Shown here piece after piece: positions 28,218-29,686 of a stretch of 37,151 bases of DNA; position 1 is the first letter of the stretch, and every line of letters starts with the position of its first letter. Position numbers and translations under genes: made by a program. Origin of the DNA: Myxococcota bacterium (lineage in GTDB: Bacteria; Myxococcota_A; Polyangia; Fen-1088); the NCBI GenBank assembly GCA_025934105.1, contig JAICYS010000022.1, positions 1-37,151 on the forward strand, read 5' to 3'. A model generated the notes under the pieces. The model ran no database searches. It was given only the letters and a program-made list of their open reading frames with translations, and was not told the origin of the DNA.

Positions 28218-28324
28218 CTCATCTCACGGTGTTTCGTGCGCGGCAACTGGCGGAACGAATCTGCACACGCTAGCATCAAGGAAGGGTCCGCGACCGACTG
28301 GCCCCAAAAGGAGGAGAAGAACGC

Positions 28325-28408
28325 ATGAGTAAACGCACCTTCACGAACGGTTTGCCGTCTCTTCGCCATCAGCGCCGGTTTGGATCTAAGGAGGCCGACC
28401 GGCCCTAA
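28325..28408 (+). CDS. Possible 27-residue small protein
   Basis: An ATG at 28325 follows AAAAGGAGGA (28306-28315; AGGAGG ends 10 bases before the ATG), one of the strongest Shine-Dalgarno sequences in the window, and runs 27 codons to TAA at 28406. The product begins MSKRTFTNGLPSLRHQRRFG and is basic, with no membrane segment. It is too short to assign. It might be a leader peptide for the structured RNA that contains it, or a real micro-protein. Confidence 0.35.
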   Translation: MSKRTFTNGLPSLRHQRRFGSKEADRP

Positions 28409-28550
28409 CCCTCCTCAGGTTTCCTGTCTGCGGTAACAGCGTCCTGAGCCCGCGCGGACGCAAACCCGGATCTCGGCGTGGCTCACGCCGATCCACGAGC
28501 TGGGCGGTGCCTCGAGGCGCGCGCCCCTGACCAGTCCCTAGCGGAACCCA

Positions 28551-28586
28551 CGAGCCGGCGGATCGTCCGCCGGCTCGTTTCTTTAT
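28551..28586 (+). terminator. Strong intrinsic terminator
   Basis: A perfect 12-base-pair stem (28551-28562 with 28566-28577) around a 3-base loop is followed by TTTCTTTAT. This is the best plus-strand intrinsic terminator in the window, yet no annotated plus-strand gene of normal size precedes it; the nearest plus-strand transcript would be the candidate RNA at 28277. That makes a real transcript in this gap likely. Confidence 0.85.
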
Positions 28587-28590
28587 CGGG

Positions 28591-28770
28591 GCCGCCGCCG
28601 CTCGAAAATTCGGCGACAGGCGCCGCCGGGCCGCCGCCGCTCGCAGGTTCGGCGACAGGCGCCGCCGGGCCGCCGCCGCTCGCAGGTTCGGCGACAGGCG
28701 TCGCCGCTCGCGCTCGCAGGTTCGGCGACAGGCGCCGCCGCTCGCAGGTCCGGCGACAGGCGCTGCCGGC
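28591..28770. repeat. Five tandem GC-rich repeats, 28-39 bp spacing
   Basis: The core GCTCGCAGGTTCGGCGACAG (or near copy), then GCGCCGCC, starts at 28600, 28639, 28678, 28712 and 28740; the first three are 39 bases apart and the last two are shortened. Each unit can form a CGGCG-ACAGG-CGCCG hairpin. The array lies between the terminator and the 3' end of the Fic-fold gene. A minus-strand frame through it encodes RRRLSPNLRAAAA repeats, but without a start or ribosome-binding site, so I take it as non-coding. Confidence 0.8.
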
Positions 28771-28837: not shown

Positions 28838-29620
28838 CTACGACGCGCGCTTGACGCGCAGGCCGTTGAGTTCGTCCAGGAACTTGGCGGTGGTCTCGAT
28901 GCTGTTCTCCAGCGACTCGATGACCAGGTTCAGCAGCGCCTCGTTCTCGGTCCGCAGCGCTTCGTAGTAGCGCTGGCGTTCGATGGAGTGGATCACGGCG
29001 GGCAGGTAGCCGTGCTTGATGAGGATGAAGTTCATCAGCAACCGCGCGACCTTGCCCGAGTTCTTGGTCCACGGGTAAGCGGACAACAGCCGGAAGTGAA
29101 CCTTGGCCGAGCGCGTGATCGGGTGGAGCTCGGCGAACTCCTCCGACTCCATCCACTCGCCCAGCTTCCGCATCTTGTAGGTGATCTTCTCCGGCGCCGC
29201 GATCTCGTGATAGTAGAGCCGGTGAAGCGGGTTCTCCTTGCGGTACGGGTACCCCTTGGCCGCCTCTTCAGGCGTCAGGATCGCGTACAGCTTCCGGATC
29301 AATTCCAGATCGACGGCCGGCGGCTTCTTGGCGACGCTCGCCTCGCGCACGAAATCGACCGCGGTCTTCTGGTTGCGAACCTCTTCGTACATCGGGATCA
29401 GCGTGACGTCGCTGATGATGCGCTGGTCGATCGCCGCCTTCAGCTCGGAGTACGACAGCACGACGCCCTCCAGCGCGTTGTCGTGGAAAATCCACGACAC
29501 GTCCAGCCGCTCCTGATAGTCCTTCAGGATCTTCGGCGGGAAGCTGGCGGTCTTGGCCCGCAGCGCCTCCATCTTGGTGTCGATCTCGAAAAACTTCGCG
29601 TCCATCCCCGTCTCCTGCAT
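28838..29620 (-). CDS. Fic-fold protein with degenerate catalytic motif
   Basis: A 260-residue cytoplasmic protein from ATG 29620 (ATG 29605, with GGAG six bases upstream, is also possible). The longer frame begins with a TTG that is part of the -35 box, so it is rejected. Fic landmarks are visible: an inhibitory-helix-like DNALEGVVLSYSEL (residues 47-60), then LGEWMES, HPITRSAKVHFRLLSA and RLLMNFILIKHGYLP. The active-site loop, canonically HPFxDGNGRxxR, reads YPWTKNSGKVAR (182-193): the catalytic His is Tyr, the metal-binding acid is Lys, and the GNG is NSG. AMP transfer in the usual way is therefore unlikely. It may be a pseudoenzyme or use another chemistry. It is divergent from rsmH. Confidence 0.8.
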   Translation of the reverse strand: MQETGMDAKFFEIDTKMEALRAKTASFPPKILKDYQERLDVSWIFHDNALEGVVLSYSELKAAIDQRIISDVTLIPMYEEVRNQKTAVDFVREASVAKKPPAVDLELIRKLYAILTPEEAAKGYPYRKENPLHRLYYHEIAAPEKITYKMRKLGEWMESEEFAELHPITRSAKVHFRLLSAYPWTKNSGKVARLLMNFILIKHGYLPAVIHSIERQRYYEALRTENEALLNLVIESLENSIETTAKFLDELNGLRVKRAS

Positions 29621-29657
29621 GGCTCGTTCGGTCCTCCGCCGAGATACGAACCGGGGC

Positions 29658-29686
29658 ACTATAGGGGCGAAGAACCCTTTCGTCAA
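29658..29686 (-). promoter_or_regulatory. Sigma-70 promoter for the Fic-fold gene
   Basis: On the minus strand TTGACG (29681-29686) and TATAGT (29658-29663) are spaced by exactly 17 bases, each matching the consensus at five of six positions. It is the best sigma-70 match in the window. The expected start of transcription near 29650 leaves a leader of about 30 bases with a GGAGG motif (29633-29637) before ATG 29620. Confidence 0.75.

Follow-up and report, generated by a model that had tools for sequence, protein, structure and literature searches.

A Fic-fold protein with a replaced AMP-transfer motif is a near-universal single-copy gene of a myxobacterial class

Fic proteins are usually encoded by patchy, mobile, toxin-like genes and are defined by one catalytic motif. 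A gene on the minus strand of the 37,151-nucleotide stretch of DNA analysed here (the window) encodes a protein with Fic landmarks in which that motif is replaced, and so raises the question of whether the product is a Fic protein at all, whether it is decaying, and what it may have been kept for. The original prediction described it as a pseudo-Fic, perhaps a regulator or a protein with a new activity.

The gene lies at 28838-29605 (minus strand) and would most likely start at the ATG at 29605, because the sequence MDAKFFEID is conserved from there in all five proteins compared (the window protein and those of its closest relatives, L001-L004) and a Shine-Dalgarno-like AGGAG, with variants in the aligned relatives, lies upstream at 29612-29616 (minus strand). 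The protein would therefore be 255 aa long. The start listed earlier, TTG 29686, is itself the -35 hexamer of the promoter and is taken to be wrong; residues are numbered here with M1 at ATG 29605, that is, the numbering of the TTG frame minus 27. The near-consensus promoter that had been proposed, TTGACG-17-TATAGT, is present at 29658-29686 (minus strand) and is of the sigma-70 type. A promoter scan of a 2-kb stretch returned 2 promoter-like sites versus 0.1 from shuffles, and in an alignment with L001-L004 the TTGAC and TATAGT/TACACT boxes are kept while much of the flanking sequence is not.

The proposed Fic fold was recovered from both sequence and predicted structure. The window protein matches the Fic/DOC domain PF02661 with 45.6 bits against a Pfam cut-off of 24 (E 1.3e-11), no NCBIfam model scores above its cut-off, and the best solved relatives by sequence are human FICD chains (E about 1e-21, residues 13-267). 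From 57 family members, AlphaFold2 gave a model with a mean pLDDT of 93.4 and a pTM of 0.91; when this model was searched with Foldseek, the best solved match was human FICD (TM 0.75-0.82, E about 1e-9). Both helices noted originally, the EG inhibitory-type helix and the LLMN helix, are present. The former spans H41-V49 (HDNALEGVV; 29459-29485, minus strand) and has D42 at the canonical Ser/Thr position, E46 as the inhibitory Glu, and G47. The flap segment Y121-I141 (YRKENPLHRLYYHEIAAPEKI; 29183-29245, minus strand) carries the invariant residues R122, P126, H128, R129, Y131 and H133, and a further invariant segment, E209-L217 (ERQRYYEAL; 28955-28981, minus strand), follows the active-loop helix.

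The replaced loop, Y177-R188 (YPWTKNSGKVAR), was found at its predicted location, 29042-29077 (minus strand). In the sequence alignment to FICD, Y177 is placed at the catalytic His363 and K181 at the metal-binding Asp, N182-S183-G184 occupy the positions of G-N-G, and K185 and R188 those of the first and second Arg. Of the AMPylase motif HPFx[D/E]GN[G/K]R, the catalytic His and the metal-binding acid are absent (Tyr177 and Lys181, respectively), and the phosphate-binding nest GN[G/K]R reads NSGK. It had been stated that the His, the acid and the GNG were all changed; this is true of the His, the acid, the first G and the N, but the last G is retained.

Replacement of the motif is general among the homologues, as tallied over 149 aligned non-canonical sequences. 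Of these, 148 have no catalytic His (the position is F in 76, Y in 65, W in 5, S in 1 and L in 1, with H in 1). The loop acid position is unconserved, with an acid in 15 (12 E and 3 D) and K or R in 58. The N of GN has become S in 124, T in 14, P in 10 and A in 1, and the first Arg is K in 114 and R in 5, with other residues in the remainder. The last G is kept in 146 sequences and the second Arg (R2) in all 149. The inhibitory-helix position holds E in 147 and D in 2. Where 31 of 31 canonical Fics have Ser, the Ser/Thr position of the inhibitory motif shows D in 142 of the sequences and E in 7. Class II (self-inhibited) Fics are defined by an N-terminal helix [S/T]xxxE[G/N] with R2 as its partner; the clade fits this pattern in part, with E/D and R2 in 149/149 but Asp or Glu for the S/T in every one. 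The sole member with a His at the catalytic position, L027 (HPFARHSGK), is without the acid and GN/GNGR; its His is either retained or regained.

The gene was found by profile search in 277 of the 290 genomes of the window's class, nearly always in single copy, and in 175 of 179 good-quality class genomes (completeness of 90% or more, contamination of 5% or less). Divergent members occur in other families of the phylum (379 phylum genomes searched) and, when read from DNA, also have no motif, e.g. YPFRRNPGTTAR, FPFDERTGVVGR and WPFDDRAGTAGR. A scan of genome contigs returned 111 relatives, 80 of which were kept, and the titles shown were Myxococcota/Deltaproteobacteria-type records. At L136 and L137 (genomes G246 and G367), the His-less protein was seen together with a second, canonical HPFVDGNGR Fic with an EGN helix, so that these genomes can serve as internal controls. 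A mobile origin was considered and rejected: plasmid and phage matches were all below 60% identity, and the two plasmid genes examined were canonical Fics. Membership of a defence system was likewise rejected, as the PADLOC matches to the PDC-S04 and SoFic models reflect Fic-domain similarity only and the loci have no defence neighbours.

Maximum likelihood trees were built from His-less rows, canonical Fics of the same phylum and canonical Fics from two plasmids. All 59 sampled His-less rows lie on one side of a branch (SH-aLRT 99), and the clade is still separate after removal of the 12 loop columns (SH-aLRT 99). A single ancient loss of the AMP-transfer motif would be the simplest reading of these quick-type, unrooted trees, although it is no proof because the root was not inferred. 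The window protein is 92% identical to those of L001 and L002, with dN of 0.045-0.049 and dS of 0.52-0.54; the resulting dN/dS of 0.086-0.089 indicates strong purifying selection.

Conservation is strongest in the cleft. Of the 24 columns that are invariant across the aligned 57 sequences, 23 fall within four segments known from canonical Fics to line the cleft (the inhibitory helix, the flap, the active loop together with its helix, and the segment R..YY). This amounts to 23/61 cleft positions versus 1/183 elsewhere (Fisher p 7e-15); the segments were picked on the basis of canonical Fic anatomy, though after the alignment had been seen. Mean entropy is 0.55 bits in these segments versus 1.66 bits elsewhere, a pattern that is by itself no proof of ligand binding because the same segments are conserved in canonical Fics. 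Specific to the clade is D42 and, within the window's class, also H128, R129, Y131, H133, E209, Q211 and R212.

The original prediction also raised a possible link to the divergent cell-wall operon, which did not survive comparison between lineages. The divergent rsmH/ftsI neighbourhood (gene names being our reading of the sequences) is confined to the window and L001-L004, with argH downstream in most. In other lineages the gene lies elsewhere, beside an acyl-CoA dehydrogenase gene and typA, a thioredoxin-like gene and thiE, recN, or map. A functional tie to the cell-wall genes was rejected because gene order differs between lineages, and no constant partner gene was seen across the lineages examined.

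The region 3' of the gene, toward argH, holds features of its own. The segment at 28270-28580 (plus strand), between the two genes, has 77-79% identity to its counterparts in the nearest relatives, L001, L002, G365 and G379. At its end, a strong hairpin precedes TTTCTTT on the plus strand; the segment matched no Rfam family. It has the look of a conserved plus-strand transcript, or a small RNA, that is confined to the genus; two family members have shorter matches. Inside it, at about 28325-28410 (plus strand), a short ORF of about 27 codons, ATGAGTAAACGCACC..., comes after AAAGGAGG; the ORF was also open in L002 when read by eye and is a possible conserved microprotein. Just downstream of the fic-like gene, at 28589-28768, is a GC-rich tandem repeat of period 39 (4 copies, 89% matches) that contains GCTCGCAGGTTCGGCGACAGGC.

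As to what the protein does, a function other than AMP transfer is probable, as had been suggested: the fold is kept, the motif is replaced across the clade, and the gene is retained. In FICD, the helix Glu bonds the second Arg and blocks productive ATP binding, an established Glu-R2 clamp (PMC6826200). AMP transfer by the known mechanism is very unlikely in the His-less clade because the clamp residues are kept while the His, the metal ligand and the GN are lost. We consider it reasonably probable that this is a class-wide, non-AMPylating Fic-fold protein that binds a ligand, a reading that covers sensing as well as new chemistry and overlaps with those below, so that our degrees of confidence are not meant to sum to one. 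The protein would be a vertically inherited member of the fold in which AMP-transfer chemistry was lost once and which was kept for another purpose. With Glu46 and Arg188 retained and a new acid, Asp42, at the helix Ser/Thr position, the alignment to FICD suggests that the helix Glu/Asp pair and Arg188 may hold the cleft closed in an auto-inhibited-like state. The retained Pro/Gly of the loop, the basic residues (K185, R188, H128, R129, H133, R210 and R212) and the invariant cleft suggest a putative site for a phosphorylated ligand or a modified peptide. Its role could be a housekeeping one, as a non-AMPylating ligand binder, and its job might be sensing, or transfer or hydrolysis of a non-AMP group by a route that does not use the loop His-Mg site. 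Two observations speak against this reading: L027 has HPF, albeit with neither acid nor GNGR, and an acid near the loop persists in some relatives (12 E and 3 D of 149).

A protein that has lost the Fic motif can still be a catalyst, as AvrB shows: its motif is divergent, yet it is a rhamnosyltransferase, and a metal-independent one (PMC2686095, PMC10866546). It is thus conceivable, if rather doubtful, that the active site has migrated: the helix acids Asp42/Glu46 would be catalytic or metal-binding, a flap His (H128 or H133) would stand in for the loop His, and another substrate would be transferred or hydrolysed, as in AvrB. The gain of Asp/Glu at the helix S/T position throughout the clade, alongside loss of the loop acid, is in keeping with such a shift, as is the invariance of H128, R129, Y131, H133 and ERQRYYE in the window's clade. 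We can only tentatively suggest that helix acids and flap His/Arg would then carry out a modification or hydrolysis not described before, and that this would be a core function of the class. However, the flap HRxYxH (H128/R129/H133) is not conserved in the distant His-less families f26 and f54, the neighbourhood contains no enzyme-like partner genes, and the inserted flap domain of AvrB is absent.

Pseudoenzymes commonly serve as scaffolds or adaptors, and the complete loss of the AMPylation residues would suit a dead Fic that acts purely as a scaffold or adaptor for proteins and binds no small molecule. We regard this as unlikely, since invariance is concentrated in the cleft and not on helices away from it.

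Far less probable still is that the protein regulates canonical Fic toxins of the same cell, or acts as their antitoxin, by supplying its inhibitory helix in trans. Neutralisation of one Fic by another occurs in Campylobacter fetus (PMC5651007), and two canonical Fics are encoded elsewhere in the window's genome. Against this, the inhibitory motif has another residue at its S/T position, no canonical fic gene is adjacent in the loci examined, and a canonical partner is not needed because the only Pfam-detectable Fic in each of genomes G077, G100 and G131 (one PF02661 match) is the His-less gene itself. That the gene is the decaying remnant of a once canonical fic, for which loss of the motif might speak, is refuted by a dN/dS of about 0.09, class-wide single-copy presence, one apparent ancient loss, and conservation of promoter and cleft, in line with the earlier impression that it was not in decay.

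The clade may point to a core function of the window's myxobacterial class. Here, nearly every genome of a bacterial class carries one copy of a gene from a motif-less branch of the Fic family, and the cleft of its product is almost invariant. The label 'Fic family protein', as assigned by homology-based annotation, would imply AMPylation for the whole clade. After AvrB, the His-less clade offers a clean, testable case of other uses of the Fic fold.

Fold and family are already known. Replacement of the motif throughout a clade is apparently undescribed within the literature searched, where we found no description of the His-less clade in work on Fic in Sorangium or on pseudo-Fic. None of the five motif groups in a 2015 survey fits F/Y-P-F/W-x-x-x-S-G-K (PMC4454073). 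The natural altered-motif variants in that survey, Doc clade D2 (His to Gln) and Fic clade F3/D1, are of unknown function and, unlike the His-less clade, keep most of the remaining motif (PMC4454073). Fic2 of Campylobacter fetus also has a degenerate Fic motif, but its His is retained and required, and the protein is a toxin adjoining its antitoxin, Fic1 (PMC5651007).

With class II Fics of the FICD/HYPE type, the window protein shares the fold, the N-terminal inhibitory helix Glu-Gly, the second Arg, and the conserved R122, H170 and R..YY segment. Unlike them, it has no catalytic His, metal-binding acid or GN, its R1 is Lys and its helix S/T is Asp; its flap is also about 2 residues longer than that of FICD and carries HRxYxH. 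In FICD the helix Glu234 is required for deAMPylation as well (PMC6826200). AvrB has likewise lost the canonical motif while keeping the loop Pro and Gly, with Ser in place of N and a basic residue in place of the acid, Arg in AvrB and K181 in the window protein (PMC2686095); across the clade, 124/149 sequences have the Ser and 58/149 have K/R at the acid position. AvrB differs in that it is secreted as an effector and its flap holds an extra domain, whereas the 255-aa window protein has no such insert. A further difference is AvrB's activity, the transfer of rhamnose from UDP-rhamnose (PMC10866546). The window protein is a Fic member by fold and homology; judged by the residues that define a Fic AMPylase, it is not one.
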